This document shows positions 5,144-44,653 of a DNA stretch of 64,000 nt, piece by piece. Source of the DNA: an uncultured Pseudomonadales bacterium (lineage in GTDB: Bacteria > Pseudomonadota > Gammaproteobacteria > Pseudomonadales > Pseudohongiellaceae); contig CALTDI010000001.1 in the NCBI GenBank assembly GCA_943842505.1, forward strand, positions 1-64,000, in the 5' to 3' direction. Position 1 is the first letter of the stretch. Every line of letters starts with the position of its first letter. The notes under the pieces are model-generated. The model ran no database searches and was not told the DNA's origin. It was given only the letters and a program-made list of their open reading frames with translations. The position numbers and the translations under genes are program-made.

Positions 5144-5261
5144 TGGAATCCACCTTGGCAACGCTGTATATTGGTTTCGCCCGACAATAATAACATAGTG
5201 TTATCTCAAGCAGATGAGGTGGCGCATCTGGCAAGACAGTAGCTATTCAGGCAAAGACGTC

Positions 5262-15489: not shown

Positions 15490-16998
15490 ATGAAATTATC
15501 GCTTCAGCTCAAGCTAGGTCAGCAACTGACCATGACTCCTCAGCTGCAGCAAGCTATACGACTTCTGCAACTCTCAACACTAGACCTTCAGCAAGAAATC
15601 CATCAGGCCCTAGAATCCAACCCCATGTTGGAATTGATCGAGAATAGCGAGGACGATACCCCCGACACGAACGACAACTCCACCACTACCGACCTTAACG
15701 AACCTCCAGCGGCCGAAGATAGCACCTCAACAAGAGACAATGCCGAGCTGAATAGCGCCGATAGCGACTGGCAGAATGAGATTCCCAATGATCTCGCCGT
15801 AGACACCCATTGGGATGACATCTATCCCGGAACCTCATCCCAGTCGAATTCCTTCGATGGAGATTCATCAGACTTCGAATCACGCACCAGCGCCGAAGGC
15901 ACTCTACAAGACCATCTTCTGTGGCAGCTCAATCTGACTCATATATCCGAAAAAGATAATTCGATCGCACTCGCAATTATCGATGCCATCGATAACAACG
16001 GCATGTTGACTGTGGATTTGGATTCTATTCACAGCGGTTTCGACGAAGAGTCGGAAGTAGAACTGGATGAGCTAGTCGCAGTTCTTCATCGCGTCCAACA
16101 ATTCGACCCTATAGGAGTAGGCCATAGAGACCTGGCAGAGTGCCTTATGCTGCAACTTGCTCAGATCGAAAGCCCTGAACTAGAAAAAGCCGTACGCAAC
16201 GCCAAGTTAGTCATCAGCGAACATATAGATCTACTCGGAAATCGAGATTATGCCCAGCTGATGCGACGCACCAAATTAAAGGAAGGTGAGCTTAGCGAAG
16301 CGATTACCATCATCGAAAGCTTAAACCCCAGACCAGGCGCCAGTATCTGTCCTCCGACAACGAGTTACGTAGTACCCGATGTAATCGTGAGCAAAGACAG
16401 CTCATCAGGAAAGTGGAAGGTCGAACTAAATCCCGAGACGGCACCAAAAATTCGAATCAATAGCGGCTATGCTGCACTCGTGAAGCGAGCCGATACCAGC
16501 GACGATAACAATTACTTGCGCGATAACTTGCAAGAGGCCAAATGGTTTATCAAGAGCCTGCAGAGCCGCAATGAAACTCTAATGAAAGTCTCCACACGAA
16601 TTGTCGAACATCAGAAAGGCTTTCTCGAGTATGGCGAAGAAGCAATGAAGCCGCTCGTGCTTCACGATATAGCCGAAGCCGTCAGCATGCATGAATCTAC
16701 GATTTCCCGAGTCACCACCCAGAAATACATGCACACACCCAGAGGCATCTTCGAGCTCAAGTACTTTTTCTCCAGCCACGTATCCACCAAGGGCGGTGGG
16801 GAATGTTCGTCCACGGCGATTCGAGCTATCATTCGCAAGCTAGTCGCGGCAGAGAACACAAAGAAGCCATTAAGCGACAGCAAGATTACCAATCTTCTGG
16901 AAGAGAAAGGCATCAATGTGGCGAGACGCACCATAGCAAAATACAGAGAATCACTCTCTATTCCTCCCTCCAATGAGCGAAAGCGATTGGCCGGATAG
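15490..16998 (+). CDS. rpoN: RNA polymerase sigma-54 factor
   Basis: The 502-residue protein has the glutamine- and leucine-rich activator region I at the N-terminus ([20 protein letters not shown]), an acidic low-complexity region II (about 50-140), the core-binding domain, and the C-terminal RpoN box [10 protein letters not shown]. Sigma-54 promoters need AAA+ activators such as the CbrB encoded at 40.4 kb. It is followed directly by ptsN; the hpf gene that normally intervenes is absent. Confidence 0.98.
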
Positions 16999-20974: not shown

Positions 20975-21271
20975 ATGTCTGACTCCAGCGCCAATTCCTA
21001 CTGGAAGGCTAATATTCGATTAGTTCTTTCACTTCTCTTTGTATGGTTCTTCATATCTTTCGGTTGTGGAATTCTTTTCGTCGACGCCCTCGATACGATT
21101 CGCTTCGGTGGATTCAAACTCGGCTTCTGGATCGCTCAACAGGGTTCGATCTTCGTCTTCGTGGCGCTGATCATTATTTACATTCGGGCAATGGACAAGC
21201 TAGACGATAAATACAATCTTGAATCCTCCAACGAGAAAGACTCGGCAGCATCCCAGGAGAGTTCAAAATGA
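20975..21271 (+). CDS. DUF4212 small subunit of a sodium/solute symporter
   Basis: I start at the ATG at 20975, which has AAGAGG 6 nt upstream; the ATG at 20969 is only 0-2 nt from the SD. The 98-residue product has two transmembrane helices separated by GFKLGFWIAQQGSI, the DUF4212 signature. Such proteins accompany large SSS symporters of the VC_2705 type. Its stop overlaps the next ATG (ATGA). Confidence 0.9.
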   Translation: MSDSSANSYWKANIRLVLSLLFVWFFISFGCGILFVDALDTIRFGGFKLGFWIAQQGSIFVFVALIIIYIRAMDKLDDKYNLESSNEKDSAASQESSK

Positions 21272-22956
21272 GCGTACAAATCTGGACCTATATTTTTGTC
21301 GCCCTTTCCTTCAGCCTCTACATCGGTATCGCAATCTGGTCTCGCGCAGGGTCAACCAAGGAATTCTATGTCGCCGGAGGCGGTGTACCTCCATTGGCGA
21401 ACGGTATGGCAACGGCTGCAGACTGGATGTCCGCCGCTTCCTTCATCTCCATGGCTGGTCTCATCTCTTTTCTAGGCCGCGACGGAACCTTCTATCTGAT
21501 GGGCTGGACCGGCGGCTATGTGCTGCTCGCCCTACTGCTGGCACCCTATCTGAGGAAATTTGGTAAATTTACGGTGCCGGACTTTATCGGTGACCGCTAC
21601 TACTCTCAGACTGCCAGACTTATAGCCGTGTTCTGCGCGATCTCTGTCTCCTTCGTCTATGTATGCGGTCAGATGCAGGGCGCAGGCATCGTATTCTCTC
21701 GATTCCTCGAAGTGGATTTCACCACCGGCGTGCTCATCGGTATGGCGATCGTTTTCTTCTATGCCGTATTAGGTGGCATGAAAGGCATTACCTACACACA
21801 GGTAGCACAATACTGCGTGCTTATCTTCGCCTTCATGGTACCGGCGATATTCATTTCAATTATGATGACCGGCCAACCTATTCCACAGATCGGATTCGGC
21901 TCTGAATTGACCGAGGCTTATGGCGGCGGCTATCTGCTAGACAGGTTAGATGGGCTTAGCGAGCAGCTAGGCTTCGCGACCTACACCGAGGGTCAGCGCA
22001 GCACTCAAGACGTGTTTTTTATTACTGCGGCACTGATGTTTGGTACTGCCGGACTGCCCCACGTCATTATTCGCTTCTTCACCGTTCCCAATGTTAGAGA
22101 CGCGCGCAAGTCTGCAGGTTATGCCCTGGTGTTTATCGCTATTCTCTACACGACCGCCCCCGCTGTTGCTGCCTTCGCTCGCACCAACCTCATCAATACG
22201 GTCAGCAACGCAGAATACGAGATGGTTCCGGAGTGGTTCAGCAAATGGGAGAACACCGGACTGATCACATTCGACGACAAGAATAACGACGGCATCATTC
22301 AATATGTGGGCGACCCAGCGACTAACGAATTAAATGTAAATAGAGACATCATGGTGTTGGCGAATCCCGAGATTGCGGAATTGCCTAACTGGGTGGTAGC
22401 GCTGGTAGTTGCGGGAGCCCTCGCCGCTGCGCTGTCCACGGCTGCGGGCCTGCTATTGGTTATCTCAACCTCGGTAGCCCATGACATGATGAAACGGACG
22501 TTCATGCCAAATATCTCGGAGAAGCAAGAGCTCGCCTATGCGCGAATTTCGATCTTCGTCGCAGTGCTGATATCGGGTTACTACGGGATTAATGCGCCTG
22601 CCTATGTGGCACAGGTGGTCGCCTTTGCATTCGGGTTAGCCGCGGCATCTTTCTTCCCAGCCATAGTGCTCGGTATTTTTCAGAAGCGTATGAACAAAGA
22701 AGGCGCCATTGCCGGAATGATCGTCGGCTTTACATTCACCGCGGCCTATATTATCTACTTCAAGATTATTAACCCAGCGGCTGACACCGCTGACAACTGG
22801 TTGTTTGGAATTTCACCGGAGGGAATTGGCTCTCTTGGCACAGTGGCAAACCTGCTTGTTGCTCTGGCTGTAGCAAAGTTCACACCACAACCACCAGCTG
22901 AGGTGCAAGAGATCGTGGAGAATATTCGCCTGCCAGGCGAGACCATCCCTCGCTAA
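21268..22956 (+). CDS. Sodium:solute symporter (SSS family), large subunit
   Basis: A 562-residue, roughly 13-helix SSS transporter related to ActP, with FYVAGGGVPPLANGMATAADWMSAASFISMAG near the N-terminus and GLPHVIIRFFTVPNVRDARKS centrally. The loop after DKNNDGIIQY resembles a partial EF-hand. Pairing with DUF4212 indicates the VC_2705 type, likely importing a small carboxylate; substrate not shown. Translationally coupled to the small subunit and predicted to share its AAYAAYAA control site. Confidence 0.92.
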   Translation: MSVQIWTYIFVALSFSLYIGIAIWSRAGSTKEFYVAGGGVPPLANGMATAADWMSAASFISMAGLISFLGRDGTFYLMGWTGGYVLLALLLAPYLRKFGKFTVPDFIGDRYYSQTARLIAVFCAISVSFVYVCGQMQGAGIVFSRFLEVDFTTGVLIGMAIVFFYAVLGGMKGITYTQVAQYCVLIFAFMVPAIFISIMMTGQPIPQIGFGSELTEAYGGGYLLDRLDGLSEQLGFATYTEGQRSTQDVFFITAALMFGTAGLPHVIIRFFTVPNVRDARKSAGYALVFIAILYTTAPAVAAFARTNLINTVSNAEYEMVPEWFSKWENTGLITFDDKNNDGIIQYVGDPATNELNVNRDIMVLANPEIAELPNWVVALVVAGALAAALSTAAGLLLVISTSVAHDMMKRTFMPNISEKQELAYARISIFVAVLISGYYGINAPAYVAQVVAFAFGLAAASFFPAIVLGIFQKRMNKEGAIAGMIVGFTFTAAYIIYFKIINPAADTADNWLFGISPEGIGSLGTVANLLVALAVAKFTPQPPAEVQEIVENIRLPGETIPR

Positions 22957-37298: not shown

Positions 37299-37475
37299 GT
37301 GTATATACCTCGATCGATCTTAGTCCTTCTATTGATCGTATACCTGCTCTTCCTATTGAGCGCCGACTGGATCAATCAGGCCAGCGGTGCCTGGTACCGT
37401 CCTTTTATGGTTGGATTCTTGGTAGTTCTGATTGCTAGCTGGTCCCATCGGGAACAGGATTCTGATGAATTTTGA
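37299..37475 (+). CDS. cbrX: CbrX-like small membrane protein upstream of cbrA
   Basis: A 58-codon frame begins with GTG at 37299, with AAGGA 6 nt upstream, and encodes two hydrophobic segments (SILVLLLIVYLLFLLSADW and FMVGFLVVLIASW) ending HREQDSDEF. It overlaps the cbrA start by 11 nt, implying translational coupling. Pseudomonas has a small ORF, cbrX, in this position and arrangement; size, membrane character and overlap fit. It is too short to appear in most automated calls. Confidence 0.8.
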   Translation: MYIPRSILVLLLIVYLLFLLSADWINQASGAWYRPFMVGFLVVLIASWSHREQDSDEF

Positions 37476-40386
37476 AATAACCACCATTATTGCGCTGGGC
37501 AGTGGCTATCTTGCGCTTCTGTTCGGCATCGCCTTCGTAACAGAGCGCGGCTGGATTCCGATCAAGATCGTGCGCCACCCTATCGTCTATGTACTCTCGC
37601 TCGGAGTCTTCGCAAGTGTTTGGGCATATTACACCTCGGTAGGCAACGCCCAGCGCGATGGCTACGGCTATCTCGCCAGCTTCATCGGCATCTCGCTGGC
37701 ATTCCTATTCTCTCCCCTATTACTGCGCCCATTATTAGAACTCACTCGCACCTATCAGCTGAGCTCCCTGGCCGACCTCATGGCATTTCGCTATCGGACT
37801 CCCTGGGCGGGCACCTTAACCACACTAGTCATACTGATCGCAGTTACACCGCTTATCGCACTGCAGATAAGAGCGGTATCCGATACTGCCTACCTATTGT
37901 CTCCAGAATCTGCCCAGGGTCTATTAGCAATTGGATTCTGTGTGGTAATCACACTGTTCTCTATTCTGTTTGGCACTTCAAGAAAGACAGGGCGCACTCA
38001 ATACGACGGCCTGGTCATGGCGATCGCCTTCGAATCCCTGGTGAAGCTAATCGCGTTTCTGGCTGTGGGTGTCTTTGCGATATACGGTGCTTTCGGCAGC
38101 CTCGATGAACTCGATCTTTGGCTGCAAGATCAGCCAGAACTGCTGGCCAGCCTGAAGAACACCGACTACTTCTCCTCCTTCCATGTCATGGCGCTACTTT
38201 TCTTCACGGCGGCTATCGCGATGCCACACATGTTCTATGTAACCTTCAATGAGAACAATGGACAGAGAGCGCTGTCTTTTGCCAGCTGGGGCCTACCCTT
38301 ATATTTTCTCCTACTTAGCCTGCCGGTTCTGCCCATACTCTGGGCTGGATTGCAGTCTGGCAGCAACGTGCCGGTAGAATACTTCCCTGTAGTGATCGGC
38401 GCGGCTTACGATATGCCACTGATCAGCATGCTCGCCTATCTGGGCGGGCTCTCGGCAGCGAGCGGCCTGATTATCGTGATTACTCTGGCGCTTTCCAATA
38501 TGTGCCTAAATCATCTGATACTACCTATCTATCAACCCAAGGCAAACGAAGACATCTATCGTTGGCTACTATGGAAGCGCCGCCTTCTTATAACTGCAAT
38601 CATATGGATGGGGTTTTTCTTCCACTATCTTCCAAGCCAACAAATAAGTATCGAGGTGATCGGCATCGTCGCGTTCACCGCCTGCCTGCAATTTATGCCG
38701 GGCATCGTCGCCATTCTCTACTGGCCAATGGCGAACAAGAAAGGCTTCCTCTGGGGGCTCGCTACAGGCGTACTCATCTGGTTTCTATTTCTCATGTTAC
38801 CGCTGCTCTCCGACGCTGACCCACTCGCCCTGACCTCTATTAACTGGCGTGAGATAACGGCGTTCTCGCTCATCGGCAACTGCATTATATTTGTCGCCGT
38901 CTCCATCCTTAGCACTAGCAGTGACGAAGAAAGAAGCTCTGCCGACATCTGCACACTAGACACCATCAAGCGACGCAAACGCAGCGGCCTGGTTGCAAAA
39001 TCAACAGATGATTTTGTTAAGAGCCTCAGCAAGCCCTTGGGAGAGAAGACGGCAACTCGTGAAGTCGACCGCGCACTCAAGGATCTAGACATCGGAGAAA
39101 AGGATCGCCGACCCTACGCCATGCAACAGCTCCGAGGGCGGCTAGAAGCGAACCTTTCTGGTCTGCTAGGCCCTTCGATTGCGAGAGAGATTATCGACGG
39201 CTACCTGCCCTACAGCATAGTCTCACAACACGGCAGCTCCGATCTGAACGTTATCGAGAATCGAATCGAAGCCTACCGCAGCAACCTATCTGGCATGGCA
39301 GCCGACCTCGACAACCTGCGGCGCTATCACCGCCAGATTCTATTAGACCTACCCTTAGGCGTTTGCTCGCTGAGTAGCGACAATGAGATCATCATGTGGA
39401 ATCGTGCCATGGAACAGTTTACTAATCTGAACTATACCGATGTCGTCGGGTCTCAGGTAATCGATCTTTCGGAGCCATGGCTAAGCCTTATTACAAATTT
39501 CATCGATGACGATGCCCTCCACTCCTATAAGTATGCCTTCGAACTAGACAGCCAGAAAAAGACAGTTAATCTGCACAAGGCACTCATCGAAAAAACCACT
39601 GATCCCGACTCGACTCATGACGGCGTAATCATTCTGCTGGAGGATATAACCGAGACTGAAATACTCGAGGCCGGGCTAACTCACAGCGAAAGACTTGCCT
39701 CAATCGGCAGACTAGCCGCCGGAGTAGCGCATGAGATAGGCAATCCAATTACCGGCATCGCCTGCCTCGCGCAAACGATTCGCGACGAATATGAAGACGA
39801 AGAATTACTTAATCTCGCCTCGCAAGTGATAGAGCAGACCGACCGCACATCGACGATACTGCAGTCGTTGGTCAACTTCGCCCATGCTGGCACGAATAAG
39901 ACTCAATACGAGCGCGAGGTAGTGTGCATTAGCGAATGCATGGCACAGGCACAGACCCTGGTTTCGCTGGATCGTAAGAACAAGGAACTGAGCTTACGCA
40001 TCGAGTGCGACCCCGAGGCTAGGGTTCTCGGCGACTCACAGCGCCTATTGCAGGTATTGATCAATCTAATCAACAACGCCCGTGATGCAAGTCAATCAAA
40101 TGGCGAAGTTCTCTTGCAGACACAAGTAAAAGGCGAGATAGTCGAAATCGCCGTAGTCGACCGAGGAATAGGCATACCCCAGGCGATCAAAGATCGTGTC
40201 TTCGATCCATTTTTTACTACCAAAGAGGCGGGAGAAGGCACTGGACTGGGGCTTTCACTCGTTTTTAGCATAGTTGAAGACTTAGGTGGTGATATTGATA
40301 TAATCAGCCCCGCAAAGGAAGGCGCAGGCGGTACACGGGTATTGCTGCGATTTCCTTGCTACCATGGTGAACCTGCCGAGAAGTAA
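37465..40386 (+). CDS. cbrA: CbrA, SSS-transporter-fused sensor histidine kinase
   Basis: From the ATG at 37465 the product is 973 residues. Residues 1-~500 form an SSS-type transporter domain with about 13 helices, then a STAC linker (~520-590), a PAS domain (~630-740), a HisKA domain with phospho-acceptor H756 (VAHEIGNP) and a HATPase domain (INNARD, DRGIGIP, GEGTGLGLS). In Pseudomonas CbrA controls use of many carbon and nitrogen sources and its transporter domain moves histidine. It phosphorylates CbrB, encoded 49 bp downstream. Confidence 0.95.
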   Translation: MNFEITTIIALGSGYLALLFGIAFVTERGWIPIKIVRHPIVYVLSLGVFASVWAYYTSVGNAQRDGYGYLASFIGISLAFLFSPLLLRPLLELTRTYQLSSLADLMAFRYRTPWAGTLTTLVILIAVTPLIALQIRAVSDTAYLLSPESAQGLLAIGFCVVITLFSILFGTSRKTGRTQYDGLVMAIAFESLVKLIAFLAVGVFAIYGAFGSLDELDLWLQDQPELLASLKNTDYFSSFHVMALLFFTAAIAMPHMFYVTFNENNGQRALSFASWGLPLYFLLLSLPVLPILWAGLQSGSNVPVEYFPVVIGAAYDMPLISMLAYLGGLSAASGLIIVITLALSNMCLNHLILPIYQPKANEDIYRWLLWKRRLLITAIIWMGFFFHYLPSQQISIEVIGIVAFTACLQFMPGIVAILYWPMANKKGFLWGLATGVLIWFLFLMLPLLSDADPLALTSINWREITAFSLIGNCIIFVAVSILSTSSDEERSSADICTLDTIKRRKRSGLVAKSTDDFVKSLSKPLGEKTATREVDRALKDLDIGEKDRRPYAMQQLRGRLEANLSGLLGPSIAREIIDGYLPYSIVSQHGSSDLNVIENRIEAYRSNLSGMAADLDNLRRYHRQILLDLPLGVCSLSSDNEIIMWNRAMEQFTNLNYTDVVGSQVIDLSEPWLSLITNFIDDDALHSYKYAFELDSQKKTVNLHKALIEKTTDPDSTHDGVIILLEDITETEILEAGLTHSERLASIGRLAAGVAHEIGNPITGIACLAQTIRDEYEDEELLNLASQVIEQTDRTSTILQSLVNFAHAGTNKTQYEREVVCISECMAQAQTLVSLDRKNKELSLRIECDPEARVLGDSQRLLQVLINLINNARDASQSNGEVLLQTQVKGEIVEIAVVDRGIGIPQAIKDRVFDPFFTTKEAGEGTGLGLSLVFSIVEDLGGDIDIISPAKEGAGGTRVLLRFPCYHGEPAEK

Positions 40387-40435: not shown

Positions 40436-41815
40436 ATGACAGCAATGAATCAAGTTCTAGTAGTAGAAGATGAAGTGGTAATTCGAACTGCGCTGAAGCG
40501 ATTACTGGAACGCCACGAATACAAAGTAAGCGAAGCCGGATCCGTCAAAGAGTCACTAGACAATTTTGACATGGACGACTTCGACGTGATTATCAGCGAT
40601 TTGCGATTACCCGGCGCACCAGGCACCGACCTAATCAAGGCGACCACGACCCCCGTCCTAATAATGACCAGCTACTCCAGTATTCGCTCCGCCATCGATT
40701 CGATGAAACTGGGTGCTGTCGATTACATTGCCAAACCTTTCGAGCACAAGGAACTAATAGAGTCAGTTGCCAAAGTAATTCGCGAACATGCTAAAGCTCC
40801 ACGTCAAGAGAGAATAGGTTCTGAAGAATTCGAACCACCGGTTCATGGAATGATCGGTAGCTGTTCACAGATGATGGAATTGTTTCGACGCATCCGAAAG
40901 GTAGCGCAGACTAATTCAACCGTTCTTATCAATGGCGAATCGGGCACCGGTAAAGAATTAGTAGCAAGAGCGATTCACAATCTGAGCAATCGCAGCACCC
41001 AGGAAATGATCTCGGTAAATTGTGCAGCGATTCCGGAAAACTTAATTGAATCGGAACTGTTCGGTCACGAGAAAGGTGCATTCACCGGCGCAACCGCAAC
41101 CAGAACCGGATTAGTCGAGGCAGCTAATGGAAGTACCCTCTTCCTCGACGAAATCGGCGAACTTCCCTTAGAAGCTCAGGCCAGGCTATTAAGAGTGTTG
41201 CAGGAGAATGAAATTCGCAAGGTCGGCTCGGTGCAGTCGAAAAAAGTAGATGTACGCCTAGTCGTAGCAACCCACCGCGACTTAAAGCAGCTCGTGGTAG
41301 ATGGTCACTTCCGCGAAGATCTCTACTATCGCATCAATGTAATGACCCTGTTGATACCACCACTAAGAGAACGCGGCGATGATATTCTCGAACTGGCAGA
41401 AGCCATTCTGCAACGCACCTGCAAACGGCTTAAGACGAAGATGCTTAGCCTGAGCGACGGAGCCAAGCGCGCCATAGCCAAATACCCCTGGCCTGGAAAT
41501 GTCCGTGAGCTGGAAAACGCGATAGAGCGCGCCGTTGTGCTGGCAGAAGAAATGGTAATCGGAGAAGAGCTGCTTGCGATTGGCGACGAAGAGAAACGAA
41601 TTTCGGGGCAGGAAGCAGAATTACAGAATCAGCAAGCGACCGCCGAACCCATTGAAGAGCTTTCTCTGGAAGATTACTTTCAGCGATTCGTGCTCGAACA
41701 TCAAGATATTATGAATGAAACCCAACTCGCGAAGAAATTGGGAATTAGCCGCAAATGTCTCTGGGAACGTCGCCAGCGTTTTGGCATACCACGCAAGAAA
41801 AAGCAGGAAGCCTAG
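40436..41815 (+). CDS. cbrB: CbrB, sigma-54-dependent NtrC-type response regulator
   Basis: The 459-residue protein has a receiver domain with D55 (VIISDLRLPG), a AAA+ domain with Walker A GESGTGKE, the sigma-54-contacting GAFTGA loop, and a C-terminal Fis-type helix-turn-helix (QLAKKLGISRKCLWERRQRFG). CbrB activates sigma-54 promoters, classically the crcZ sRNA promoter directly downstream. An almost identical arrangement is found here. Confidence 0.96.
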   Translation: MTAMNQVLVVEDEVVIRTALKRLLERHEYKVSEAGSVKESLDNFDMDDFDVIISDLRLPGAPGTDLIKATTTPVLIMTSYSSIRSAIDSMKLGAVDYIAKPFEHKELIESVAKVIREHAKAPRQERIGSEEFEPPVHGMIGSCSQMMELFRRIRKVAQTNSTVLINGESGTGKELVARAIHNLSNRSTQEMISVNCAAIPENLIESELFGHEKGAFTGATATRTGLVEAANGSTLFLDEIGELPLEAQARLLRVLQENEIRKVGSVQSKKVDVRLVVATHRDLKQLVVDGHFREDLYYRINVMTLLIPPLRERGDDILELAEAILQRTCKRLKTKMLSLSDGAKRAIAKYPWPGNVRELENAIERAVVLAEEMVIGEELLAIGDEEKRISGQEAELQNQQATAEPIEELSLEDYFQRFVLEHQDIMNETQLAKKLGISRKCLWERRQRFGIPRKKKQEA

Positions 41816-41934
41816 CCCGATCACTCCAAAGCCGCAGCCGCCAGCTTAGACGCATGGCACATTACTGCAGCCCCAAAACCAAGGCTTTTGACGGGTGATA
41901 TGACGAGGGTTATTTGTTACCGCTACCCGACTAC

Positions 41935-41960
41935 CCAAATATTAGGGAAAAACAGTAACA
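41935..41960. promoter_or_regulatory. Putative CbrB upstream activating site
   Basis: An inverted repeat TGTTAC (41935-41940) - 14 bp - GTAACA (41955-41960), lying about 75-100 bp before the sigma-54 -24 element. This is the expected distance for an enhancer and resembles the CbrB site reported for Pseudomonas crcZ as I recall it. Direct binding is inferred. Confidence 0.6.
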
Positions 41961-42032
41961 TAAGTGGGTCTTTAGAAATGGAATACTAATTTCTCAAATA
42001 CTAACCACTTGATATATATACCTATTACCAAC

Positions 42033-42049
42033 TTGGCACAGTAAATGCT
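42033..42049 (+). promoter_or_regulatory. Sigma-54 promoter of the CrcZ-like RNA
   Basis: TTGGCACAGTAAATGCT carries a complete TTGGCAC -24 box with GG at 42035-42036 and the GC of the -12 box at 42047-42048, exactly 10 bp apart; the only notable deviation is ATGC for TTGC. Transcription should begin near 42060, just before the A-rich repeats. Confidence 0.75.
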
Positions 42050-42256
42050 GGTATACAGTGATAATAATAACAATAAATAATAATAATAATTCTCAATAAA
42101 AACAAAAATAGCATTACTGAGTTATAAAACTAAGGTTAGTGCAATAAATAATAATAAGGTCGGGTTGTAGTTAATTTGGCATTTGCCATCGAGCTTCATG
42201 TTCACCACCTAATACTTATGCAGTACCGCCATGGGTACGCACTTAAAAATATAGAT

Positions 42257-42282
42257 CTAATAGCAATAATAATAACTATTAG
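42257..42282 (+). other. Hairpin presenting the AAYAAYAA motif in its loop
   Basis: CTAATAG (42257-42263) pairs perfectly with CTATTAG (42276-42282), leaving the 12-nt loop CAATAATAATAA, which holds two overlapping AAYAAYAA octamers. An exposed loop is a suitable display for the Hfq distal face. Confidence 0.7.
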
Positions 42283-42290
42283 CTTCCTAT

Positions 42291-42311
42291 GGGGGGTGGT
42301 ATTCACCCCCC
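42291..42311 (+). terminator. GC-rich stem at the probable 3' end of the CrcZ-like RNA
   Basis: GGGGGGTG pairs with CACCCCCC around GTATT. It is followed by AATAATATC rather than a U-tract, so it is not a textbook terminator; it may be a stabilising 3' stem or a processing site. Confidence 0.5.
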
Positions 42312-42586
42312 AATAATATCTCCCTAAACTTTCTAATTTACCCACATGCTGGCCGCTACTGCATTCTGCCCGTTCGCCGCCTGTAGTTTTCTCCGGTTCC
42401 GTGTATCATGCCAATTCATGATTGGTAAGCAGACCCTCTCTACAGGTTTGTCCAGCCAATGCGATAGACGCATGCCTGCGACTTGAAGTTGTAATTGCAA
42501 AGAAAATTAGCCGTGACCAAGTTCTCTATACTCGTACTATACAGCCCTGCCTCGCAGCCGAATTGCGCATTGGAGTGTGAGCCGCG
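42312..42586 (+). promoter_or_regulatory. pcnB upstream region
   Basis: No open frame. Possible -10 hexamers TATACT (42527-42532) and TATACA (42538-42543) lie 45-60 bp before pcnB, but neither has a convincing -35, so the pcnB promoter is only suggested. Confidence 0.3.
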
Positions 42587-43957
42587 ATGAATCAGCCGAC
42601 GAACCCTTCCTCTACTTCATCACTGGTAGGCATCGAAAAAGCGACTCTGTTGGAGCGCGATCACCACCCTATCTCGCGCAAGCAGATTTCCCCCAACGCG
42701 GTAAGAGTCCTCTATAAGCTTGCCGAAGCCGGGCACCATGGCTTCCTTGTGGGCGGCGGTGTACGTGACCTGCTCCTGGGGAAAAACCCCAAGGACTTCG
42801 ACATCGCGACCGATGCCTCGCCGGAGCAACTCAAGTCATTGTTTCGCAACGCCAGAATAATCGGGCGCCGCTTCAAGATTATTCATCTACGCTTCGGTAG
42901 AGAGATCATCGAGGTTACAACCTTCCGCGCCCCTCATGACGCCGAGAACAAGATTGCAGACAACGTACCCAGGCGCCGCATTCAGAATCAGGAATCCGCA
43001 CACTCTACCGCTGGAATGATTCTGCGCGATAACGTCTATGGCAACATCGATGAAGATGCGCTACGCCGGGACTTCACCATCAATGCCCTGTACTACACTA
43101 TAGACAAGTTTCGGATTCTGGATTTCAGCACCGGCCTGGAAGACTTGGAGTCAAAGCAAATACGCATGATCGGCGATCCTGCCGAGCGCTACAAAGAAGA
43201 CCCTGTGCGCATGCTGCGAGCGATTCGTTTTGCCGCGAAGCTGGGTTTCACTATCGAAGAAAAGACCGAGAAGCCCATCGACGAACTGGCGCACCTGCTG
43301 GAATCTATATCTACCGCCAGGCTCTTTGATGAAACCATCAAACTGATGGCCGGGGGTCATGCCGTCAAGACCTTCGAACTGCTTAGACGCTATCGACCGG
43401 GCATGTACTTATTCGCGCCCACATTCCGCGCTCTGGAAAAAATCTCCGGGCCACCGAGTAAACTGGTAGATCTGGCATTGGAAAACACTGACTCAAGGCT
43501 GGCTGCAGGCAAGTCTGTAACCCCCGCATTTCTCTTTGCCGCCTTGCTCTGGCCTGTTTTGCAGCTACGCTTACAGTCGCTACAGTCGAACGAGGCCAAC
43601 CAACATCAGCTATTCCAACAAGCCGCACAAGAAGTTTTGATGGAACAGATACAATATACCGCCGTGCCGAAGCGCTTTACCATTGCTACGAAAGAGATAT
43701 GGGATCTACAGTCACGCCTGATGCGCGACAACCGGCGCAACATAGACGGCGCGTTTAACCATCCCAGATTTCGAGCTGCCTATGATTTCTTGCTCTTGCG
43801 TGAAGATGCCGGAGAAGACCTGGGCGGTCGCGGCGCATGGTGGACCGAGTATCAAATCGGTGCTACAAAGCGAGAGGTTGAACATGTAAATAGCGACGGC
43901 GAAGCGCCAAAGAAAAGGCGACGCAGACGCAAACCAAAAACCAAGCCCGCAGCCTAA
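42587..43957 (+). CDS. pcnB: Poly(A) polymerase I
   Basis: The 456-residue class II nucleotidyltransferase has GGGVRD (56-61), catalytic D70 and D72 (KDFDIATDA), RRDFTINALYY and the downstream RNA-binding helices, ending in a basic tail (KKRRRRRKPKTK). It adds 3' poly(A) tails that speed RNA decay. The position after the CbrB/sRNA region is as in Pseudomonas. Confidence 0.96.
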   Translation: MNQPTNPSSTSSLVGIEKATLLERDHHPISRKQISPNAVRVLYKLAEAGHHGFLVGGGVRDLLLGKNPKDFDIATDASPEQLKSLFRNARIIGRRFKIIHLRFGREIIEVTTFRAPHDAENKIADNVPRRRIQNQESAHSTAGMILRDNVYGNIDEDALRRDFTINALYYTIDKFRILDFSTGLEDLESKQIRMIGDPAERYKEDPVRMLRAIRFAAKLGFTIEEKTEKPIDELAHLLESISTARLFDETIKLMAGGHAVKTFELLRRYRPGMYLFAPTFRALEKISGPPSKLVDLALENTDSRLAAGKSVTPAFLFAALLWPVLQLRLQSLQSNEANQHQLFQQAAQEVLMEQIQYTAVPKRFTIATKEIWDLQSRLMRDNRRNIDGAFNHPRFRAAYDFLLLREDAGEDLGGRGAWWTEYQIGATKREVEHVNSDGEAPKKRRRRRKPKTKPAA

Positions 43958-43987: not shown

Positions 43988-44653
43988 ATGACACTTGGCG
44001 ATACTAGCAGAGAAGCTCCTCGCTACATTGCGGTAGAGGGGCCTATAGGCGTAGGCAAGACCACGCTAACGAAACGCCTCGCCGACACTTTCAACTACGA
44101 GCTATTACTTGAGAAGAGCGAGGACAATCCTTTTCTCGATCGTTTCTATCAGAACCCAAAGCAGCACGCCCTATCAACGCAACTCTTCTTCCTCTTTCAA
44201 CGCGCCCAGCAGATTCAAGACCTACGTCAGAACGACATGTTCGAACCGGTGCGGGTAGCAGATTTCTTGATCGACAAGGATCAATTGTTCGCCCAGCAAA
44301 ATCTCGAACCCGATGAGTTCGAGCTCTATCTCAATGTATACCGTCATCTCACTATCGATGCACCGGTACCCGATCTGGTTATCTATCTGCAGGCACCCAC
44401 CGAGGTGTTGCTAGGCAGAATTCAAAAACGTGGCGTCGATGCCGAGCAACTCATCGAACGCAGCTATCTGGAGAACCTGAATGAAGCCTATGCCGAGTTC
44501 TTTCACTACTACAACAGGTCGCCGCTGCTCATCGTGAACAGCGCAGATATCGACCTGGTGAACAATGAAGATGACTACGAGCAACTGGTAAAACGGGTAG
44601 TGTCCCCCGGCGCCGGAACTCAATATTTCAACCCGCGCCCCTCACTCATCTAA
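43988..44653 (+). CDS. Deoxynucleoside kinase family protein
   Basis: A 221-residue P-loop kinase with GPIGVGKT (18-25), FLIDKDQLFAQ, and the LID-like region ERSYLENLNEAYAEFFHYYN. It belongs to the dCK/dGK-type deoxynucleoside kinases, salvaging deoxynucleosides. In related genomes it follows folK; here it follows pcnB directly after 30 bp, with no folK. Confidence 0.9.
   Translation: MTLGDTSREAPRYIAVEGPIGVGKTTLTKRLADTFNYELLLEKSEDNPFLDRFYQNPKQHALSTQLFFLFQRAQQIQDLRQNDMFEPVRVADFLIDKDQLFAQQNLEPDEFELYLNVYRHLTIDAPVPDLVIYLQAPTEVLLGRIQKRGVDAEQLIERSYLENLNEAYAEFFHYYNRSPLLIVNSADIDLVNNEDDYEQLVKRVVSPGAGTQYFNPRPSLI

Follow-up and report, generated by a model that had tools for sequence, protein, structure and literature searches.

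A CrcZ-type RNA module between cbrB and pcnB in the Pseudohongiellaceae, most likely working without Crc

The DNA analyzed here is a stretch of 64 kb (the window) from a bacterium of the family Pseudohongiellaceae (f1; genome completeness 94%). The gap between cbrB and pcnB in the window (41816-42586, 771 nt) holds a real, conserved sequence feature of the CrcZ type. We give roughly three chances in four to the reading that it encodes a regulatory RNA, driven by CbrB and sigma-54, that acts as a sponge for Hfq, most likely without Crc. In the literature, CrcZ is treated as the antagonist of Hfq/Crc. The anatomy of the module, its conservation, and the genes for CbrAB, RpoN, and Hfq are observed.

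Locus and promoter

An earlier note on this DNA had described the gap between cbrB and pcnB as noncoding. This is borne out by the list of open reading frames, which has none of at least 80 amino acids on either strand inside the gap. TIGR01942 identifies pcnB (Table 1). Upstream of the gap, an SLC5-STAC kinase adjoins a sigma-54 response regulator, the arrangement by which we define CbrAB. Residues 12-600 of CbrA match PDB entry 10ED (P. putida CbrXA SLC5-STAC; accession given in PMC13022988, in excerpt) with 626 bits. Pfam places HisKA, HATPase, and PAS domains in CbrA, and its SSF model gives no match to the protein at 1e-3. The small ORF at the start of cbrA can be called CbrX-like; Pseudomonas CbrX is encoded upstream of cbrA and is translationally coupled (PMC13022988, in excerpt). 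A gene of the deoxynucleoside-kinase family (PF01712) lies directly 3' of pcnB, at 43988-44653.

Table 1. Features of the module and of related genes in the window.
Feature	Position	Strand	Remark
Candidate target site AACAATAATAA	20951..20961	+	directly before the Shine-Dalgarno sequence of the DUF4212/Na_symport_sm gene; inferred
rpoN (sigma-54)	15490..16998	+	TIGR02395, 494 bits; inside the window
CbrX-like membrane ORF, 58 aa	37299..37475	+	overlaps cbrA start; assigned by position and hydrophobicity alone
cbrA, SLC5-STAC-PAS-histidine kinase	37432..40386	+	likelier start is the ATG at 37465
cbrB, sigma-54-dependent response regulator	40436..41815	+	Response_reg and Sigma54_activat; ortholog-level matches order-wide
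Putative CbrB F subsite, TGTTAC	41915..41920	+	about -118, vs -122 in named Pseudomonas loci
Putative CbrB subsite at R2 position, GTAACA	41955..41960	+	R1 position empty
IHF-like site, strict WATCAANNNNTTR	42002..42014	-	not in the earlier note
sigma-54 promoter TTGGCACAGTAAATGCT	42033..42049	+	aligned in 24 genus loci
CrcZ-type RNA, predicted, ~255 nt	42059..42312	+	start from promoter spacing, end from hairpin
A-rich Hfq/CA cluster 1 (putative)	42063..42089	+	strongly conserved in genus
Hairpin 1	42111..42142	+	conserved; 95% of cells pair
CA cluster 2	42147..42157	+	AAYAAYAA scan
CA cluster 3	42265..42275	+	mostly in hairpin loop of predicted fold
3' terminator-like hairpin	42290..42312	+	compensatory changes; not in the earlier note
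pcnB, downstream neighbor	42587..43957	+	TIGR01942, 481 bits vs cut-off 306

The inverted repeat TGTTAC/GTAACA reported earlier is present, with a spacer of 34 nt. In named Pseudomonas loci the boxes F, R1, and R2 lie near -122, -103, and -81, and in Pseudohongiellaceae loci F and R2 lie near -118 and -79. With the CrcZ subsites F1/R1/R2 as defined in PMC6296734 (in excerpt), the window locus has F and R2, and R1 is absent. Box R1 is missing in g1 (which includes the window), g23, and g145; more boxes are kept in g24.

The sigma-54 promoter shows the exact GG-N10-GC spacing that had been claimed for it, with GG at 42035-42036 and GC at 42047-42048. The pattern YTGGCACN6TGCW has a single plus-strand match in the 64 kb, which is this element. 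The IHF-like site matches the strict IHF consensus. Among the 60 Pseudohongiellaceae loci that show the full architecture (one of which entered the count twice), 49 have such a site with at most one mismatch, against 17% of shuffles.

Predicted RNA

The A-rich transcript with three AAYAAYAA clusters that had been proposed remains a prediction from sequence, and its motifs are found well above the level of shuffles. The RNA is 39% A and carries 10 overlapping AAYAAYAA matches in three clusters, out of 17 plus-strand matches in the window. Versions of the RNA shuffled by dinucleotides hold 0.35 matches on average, and 0 of 3000 reach 10; three or more clusters appear in shuffled RNA with a frequency of 0.0027. 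The predicted fold of 260 nt has an energy of -55.9 kcal/mol (z -2.24). Clusters 1 and 2 are essentially unpaired in it, and cluster 3 is mostly looped.

The stem of the 3' hairpin is paired in 94% of cells across the genus (20 loci), and 7 of its 10 pairs have changed on both sides. It has 29 double-change cells; shuffles give 8.6, and slid versions never give more than 12. The hairpin lies 231-284 nt from the promoter in 22 of 24 loci. It has no T-run in the window's own genome, and a T-run is present in some relatives; a simple terminator scan found nothing on the plus strand at the locus and did not list this hairpin. Hairpin 1 was rejected as covariation evidence, being too invariant and showing no covariation. 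A short ORF was also rejected as the product. The longest ATG-started stretch in the RNA has 32 codons, and the open stretches in the RNAs of relatives (0-41 codons) are unrelated in sequence.

Conservation

In the alignment of 24 loci from the genus, the first cluster is strongly conserved, as are the block between the boxes and the promoter. We defined a strict architecture as GTTAC or GTAAC 40-170 nt 5' of the sigma-54 element together with AAYAAYAA 20-90 nt after the start of the element. Downstream of cbrB it is found in g1 at 25 of 32 loci (own included), in a further Pseudohongiellaceae draw at 26 of 45, in other families at 13 of 20, and in the named set, which is mostly Pseudomonas, at 37 of 50; it is also found at 5/5 and 3/3 loci picked for their Rfam match. 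None of 27 paralogue loci has it, nor does any of 3640 shuffled sequences, all groups pooled. Loci with less than 300 nt downstream were excluded (2 of 34 in g1, 0 of 20 in other families, 1 of 51 named, 2 of 47 in the further draw, and 2 of 29 paralogues), and at L135 cbrB is absent.

The g1 loci that fail are L023 and L025, whose genomes are still matched by the R1 model described below, and the gap-less L027, L029, L033, L034, and L035. The failures in other families are L036, L038, L040, L042, L046, L051, and L052, and those among named loci are L169, L179, L196, L201, L202, L204, L207, L208, L209, L212, L213, L217, and L218. In the further Pseudohongiellaceae draw, 19 of 45 fail, three of them from the gap-less clade (L255, L263, L264, L266, L270, L273, L274, L275, L280, L281, L283-L286, L289-L292, and L294). 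Two loci from two other families, L039 (G047) and L048 (G041), have two tandem sigma-54 elements downstream of cbrB, each followed by AAYAAYAA clusters, and possibly encode two CrcZ-type RNAs in a row.

A model of the first 99 positions (the R1 model), which has the window's own sequence among its sources, matches the window at 42061-42159 with E 5.9e-10. It matches 27 of 58 genomes (own included), all from the window's genus; 23 of these supplied the model and 4 did not. The best match lies downstream of cbrB in all of them except G032, where cbrB is on another contig. There is one copy in the window's own genome, at the CrcZ place, and a second, partial match in G020. In a subclade of the genus the gap has been lost, and pcnB lies within ~60 nt of cbrB or overlaps it. 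Eight loci are gap-less or nearly so (L027, L029, L033, L034, L035, L274, L280, and L283). The R1 model finds nothing elsewhere in the five of these genomes that were searched, and RF01675 finds nothing in all eight.

Relation to Rfam family RF01675

The Rfam model RF01675 scores 13.4 bits on the window sequence over 42055-42340 (E 0.41); its gathering score is 95. At gathering cut-offs, Rfam finds nothing in the window, and RF01675 gives no genome-level match in the window's own genome, in the two wider searches below either. The first of these, over 390 genomes from the order, gives matches in 71 at E 1e-3. Above the cut-off are 19 genomes, 16 in f21 and 3 in f2. Family f21 is Pseudomonadaceae-like: the Crc of its genome G056 is 87% identical to P. 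aeruginosa Crc, and the CbrB of G056 clusters with those of Pseudomonas and Stutzerimonas in the CbrB tree. Five genomes of g23 match with E 4e-9 to 2e-7, and a sixth (G259) has no match.

A second search with RF01675, at a level of 0.05, covered 35 chosen genomes, 27 that are not gap-less and 8 that are gap-less or nearly so. At the cbrB locus, 9 of the 27 match (E 9e-9 to 0.004); those in G080, G434, G025, G003, G011, and G012 have E 9e-9 to 5e-5, and the rest are in G009, G035, and G029. The other 18 and all 8 gap-less genomes are without a match there. Four matches lie off the cbrB locus, with E 2e-4 to 0.03. Because 3 of 14 control genomes also match at the 0.05 level, the weakest matches mean little. 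Pseudohongiellaceae relatives with a match score 20-41 bits at the same place.

The claim that the sequence is not recognizably that of CrcZ therefore stands for the window's own sequence, at 13.4 bits, and does not stand for several relatives, at E 9e-9 to 5e-5. Position, promoter class, and motifs had also been likened to those of CrcZ; geometry and synteny agree with the named Pseudomonas loci, apart from box R1. The RNA is therefore a syntenic CrcZ-type RNA that relatives bridge to the Rfam family. We file it as CrcZ-type and not as a member of RF01675 since it does not reach the gathering score.

Hfq and Crc

Hfq is found in the window's own genome with 97.6 bits. It shares 61 of 74 residues with P. 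aeruginosa Hfq; Y25, I30, K31, and Q33 are kept, and N28 is replaced by S. The earlier note had proposed a CbrB/sigma-54-driven RNA working with Hfq and Crc, and had named a genome without orthologues of these two as a finding that would refute it. The RNA type, Hfq, and RpoN hold up, but the Crc partner does not, so that half of this refuting condition applies: canonical Crc was found neither in the window's own genome nor in any Pseudohongiellaceae sequence read. The searches used the own homologue and a Crc profile as queries at E 1e-15, and 47 of the 90 listed profile matches were read.

Three Exo_endo_phos proteins are encoded in the own genome, one of them close to Crc. It is 45% identical to Crc and scores 254 bits with it; the Neisseria AP endonuclease gives the better match, at 296 bits, and all eight catalytic positions checked are intact in this NApe-type protein. 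Intact catalytic residues are found in 75 of 75 ExoIII-like rows from the Pseudohongiellaceae (33 + 28 + 14 rows; 69 genes). The same search recovered a degenerate Crc in 16 of 21 genomes from other families, and no Crc was found in f3, f17, f18, f19, or f22. The same combination, RNA architecture present and canonical Crc not found, occurs in f17, in f22, and in a 75% complete f3 genome.

The Crc sequences form one clade in the tree (100/99). In the CbrB tree, the Pseudohongiellaceae join the Crc-bearing family f5 (96/76, not a starred branch), and in the neighboring group all sampled families but f18 have Crc. Because Crc is monophyletic and the neighbors in the CbrB tree bear it, loss is the simplest reading, and Crc appears to have been lost in the Pseudohongiellaceae. 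Since canonical Crc was not found, the partner of the RNA is probably Hfq alone rather than Hfq/Crc.

An intact NApe-type nuclease and a degenerate Crc occur together in f4, f9, and f13 (L110-L112 with L098, L102, and L104). This is consistent with an origin of Crc by duplication of an NApe-type nuclease.

Alternative explanations

Two alternatives keep a Crc function in these genomes. The intact ExoIII/NApe-type AP endonuclease might moonlight as Crc, with the RNA titrating an Hfq/nuclease complex as in Pseudomonas. No protein in the genome is indeed closer to Crc than the NApe-type one, and several g1 copies carry a KRRE patch at Crc positions 139-142. However, many copies have K, G, D, S, or N (the window's own has K) in place of R140, which is pivotal in P. 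aeruginosa Crc (PMC6422490, in excerpt). By contrast, all 16 canonical Crc proteins examined carry K139/R140/R141 unchanged. Moreover, the RNA architecture is kept in G299 and G442 (g24) and in G423 and G428 (g144), the four genomes of these groups in which RNA locus and nuclease were both read. None of the four has the NApe-type protein; the only protein that the Crc profile matches in them at E 1e-15 comes from a different ExoIII-like subfamily, which has no such patch. We consider this explanation unlikely, and NApe as a stand-in for Crc is disfavored. It is less likely still that the system is the canonical CrcZ/Hfq/Crc one, with a crc gene that the assembly misses or that has diverged too far to be found. 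The genome is 94% complete and most relatives are drafts, an ExoIII-like match at E 1e-15 is missing in 4 of 37 g1 genomes, and the reading covered 47 of the 90 profile matches. Against this, a single NApe-type gene is what most g1 genomes show, including some that are 99-100% complete, and in f4, f9, and f13 the same query recovered NApe as well as Crc. G259, a single contig and 100% complete, has two matches, of which the better, the one read, is intact (L165).

The other alternatives concern the element itself. It could be a long 5' leader or an enhancer of pcnB, with the A-rich stretches acting in cis; it does precede pcnB in the same orientation, and in the own genome there is no T-run at the terminator. 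We regard this as very improbable, as a covarying 3' hairpin ends the element ~270 nt before pcnB and CrcZ is made from the same place in Pseudomonas. That an A/T-rich spacer with simple AAT repeats should look like this by chance is scarcely credible: the RNA is 39% A, but the shuffles, the paralogue control, the position-specific conservation, and the covariation all speak against it.

Candidate targets

Within the window, a symporter operon would be the best candidate target on the strength of its leader motif. It consists of the DUF4212/Na_symport_sm gene (20975-21268) followed by a VC_2705-type symporter gene (21268-22956). Among 26 loci of the genus outside the gap-less clade, this leader has AAYAAYAA in 12, AANAANAA in 4 more, and neither in 10. 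In the gap-less clade, 0 of 4 leaders have AAYAAYAA or AANAANAA. The difference gives p 0.13 for AAYAAYAA (12/26 vs 0/4) and p 0.04 when AANAANAA is included (16/26 vs 0/4); leaving out G034, whose RNA status is unknown, gives 0.27 and 0.04. One locus in the comparison, L329 (G013), is probably a paralogue, the closer copy in G013 being broken into two matches. The contrast between RNA-bearing and gap-less loci is only suggestive.

In 459 kb of the own genome, AAYAAYAA occurs at 11 of 389 gene starts, the top count among 28 permuted motifs, the rest of which average 3.9. The Pseudomonadaceae-like positive control came out lower than expected, with 2 of 340 (rank 2 of 28; mean of other motifs 1.0), and the RNA-less G475, which is more GC-rich, has 0 of 312. 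As support for Hfq targets this test is weak. The 11 gene starts, which include those of MadL, a tannase-family protein, NhaB, and a PEP-utilizing protein, serve as leads. A AATAATAA motif is also present at 5186-5214, and the ATG of a DegS/HtrA-like protease gene follows 28 nt after its start.

Spread of CbrAB

CbrB is present at the level of an ortholog (51-64% identity) in 20 of 21 genomes from other families, one of which is the Pseudomonadaceae-like f21; in f19 the CbrB match is at paralogue level only. In 17 of the 20, CbrA is matched on the stretch that holds CbrB. The CbrB of the window is 61-64% identical to Pseudomonas CbrB. CbrAB has been said to be unique to the Pseudomonadaceae (PMC8871633, a 2022 review, and PMC6296734, both in excerpt). 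Contrary to the review, CbrAB and its RNA also occur outside that family. A literature search, in which most subscription journals were not covered, returned no report of CrcZ outside the Pseudomonadaceae. The spread of the module beyond the Pseudomonadaceae and its apparent persistence without Crc are new.

The CbrB proteins at L212 (Pyxidicoccus fallax) and L217 (Myxococcaceae) are 56-57% identical to that of the window, stand together in the CbrB tree, and are without the RNA architecture; they may reflect transfer or contamination. At the Alcanivorax locus L218 the RNA architecture is absent. The excerpted text of an Alcanivorax sRNA paper (PMC9788540) does not mention cbrB or pcnB, and reports a Crc homologue to be absent in Alcanivorax.

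Proposed mechanism and its meaning

We infer transcription, the binding of CbrB, IHF, and Hfq, the targets, and the regulatory outcome. When the preferred carbon source is exhausted, CbrA would activate CbrB, which would occupy the F and R boxes ~118 and 79 nt 5' of the promoter element. IHF would bend the DNA, and sigma-54 polymerase would make the A-rich RNA of ~255 nt. Its three (ARN)n/AAYAAYAA stretches would fill the distal face of Hfq, and the Hfq block would be lifted from mRNAs with the same motif at the ribosome site, such as that of the Na+/solute symporter operon. Because Crc appears to be lost, Hfq alone is the most likely target of the sponge in the Pseudohongiellaceae. P. aeruginosa CrcZ is a decoy that attaches to the distal face of Hfq, and in E. 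coli Hfq was both required and enough to repress amiE (PMC4063720, in excerpt). By analogy, this decoy logic would fit the Pseudohongiellaceae, which appear to lack Crc.

We lean toward the view that CrcZ has outlived Crc. The Pseudohongiellaceae, nested among Crc-bearing families, would have lost Crc and mostly kept the sponge, leaving catabolite control to Hfq alone. One subclade would have lost the RNA too, so that cbrB abuts pcnB, and the module would date from early in the order and not from Pseudomonas. This amounts to a natural experiment on a question raised in PMC4063720 (in excerpt), namely whether the essential target of CrcZ is Hfq or the Hfq/Crc complex, and what Crc adds. Genomes with RNA and Crc, with the RNA only, and with neither (the 8 gap-less or nearly gap-less ones, from the same genus) can be compared directly. 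A broader covariance model of CrcZ could also be trained on these loci.

Comparison with known systems

The window RNA differs from Pseudomonas CrcZ in its predicted length (~255 nt vs 407 nt in P. aeruginosa; PMC4063720, in excerpt), in the absence of box R1, and in its score (13.4 bits vs 95), and canonical Crc was not found in the Pseudohongiellaceae. The two agree in their place between cbrB and pcnB, in F and R2 boxes at similar distances, in the sigma-54 promoter, in several AAYAAYAA stretches that begin ~30 nt after the start of the promoter element, and in an Hfq with conserved distal-face residues. CrcY and CrcX, the further CrcZ-like RNAs of Pseudomonas, share the promoter class and the CbrB boxes (crcY, PMC6296734, in excerpt), but the window's own genome has one R1-model copy only, and it stands at the CrcZ place. 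CbrAB was reported as exclusive to the Pseudomonadaceae, yet it is found here in other families, with a CbrA in the window that resembles P. putida CbrA. What appears to be the food-choice switch of Pseudomonas is present in the bacterium of the window, which stands far apart from that genus.
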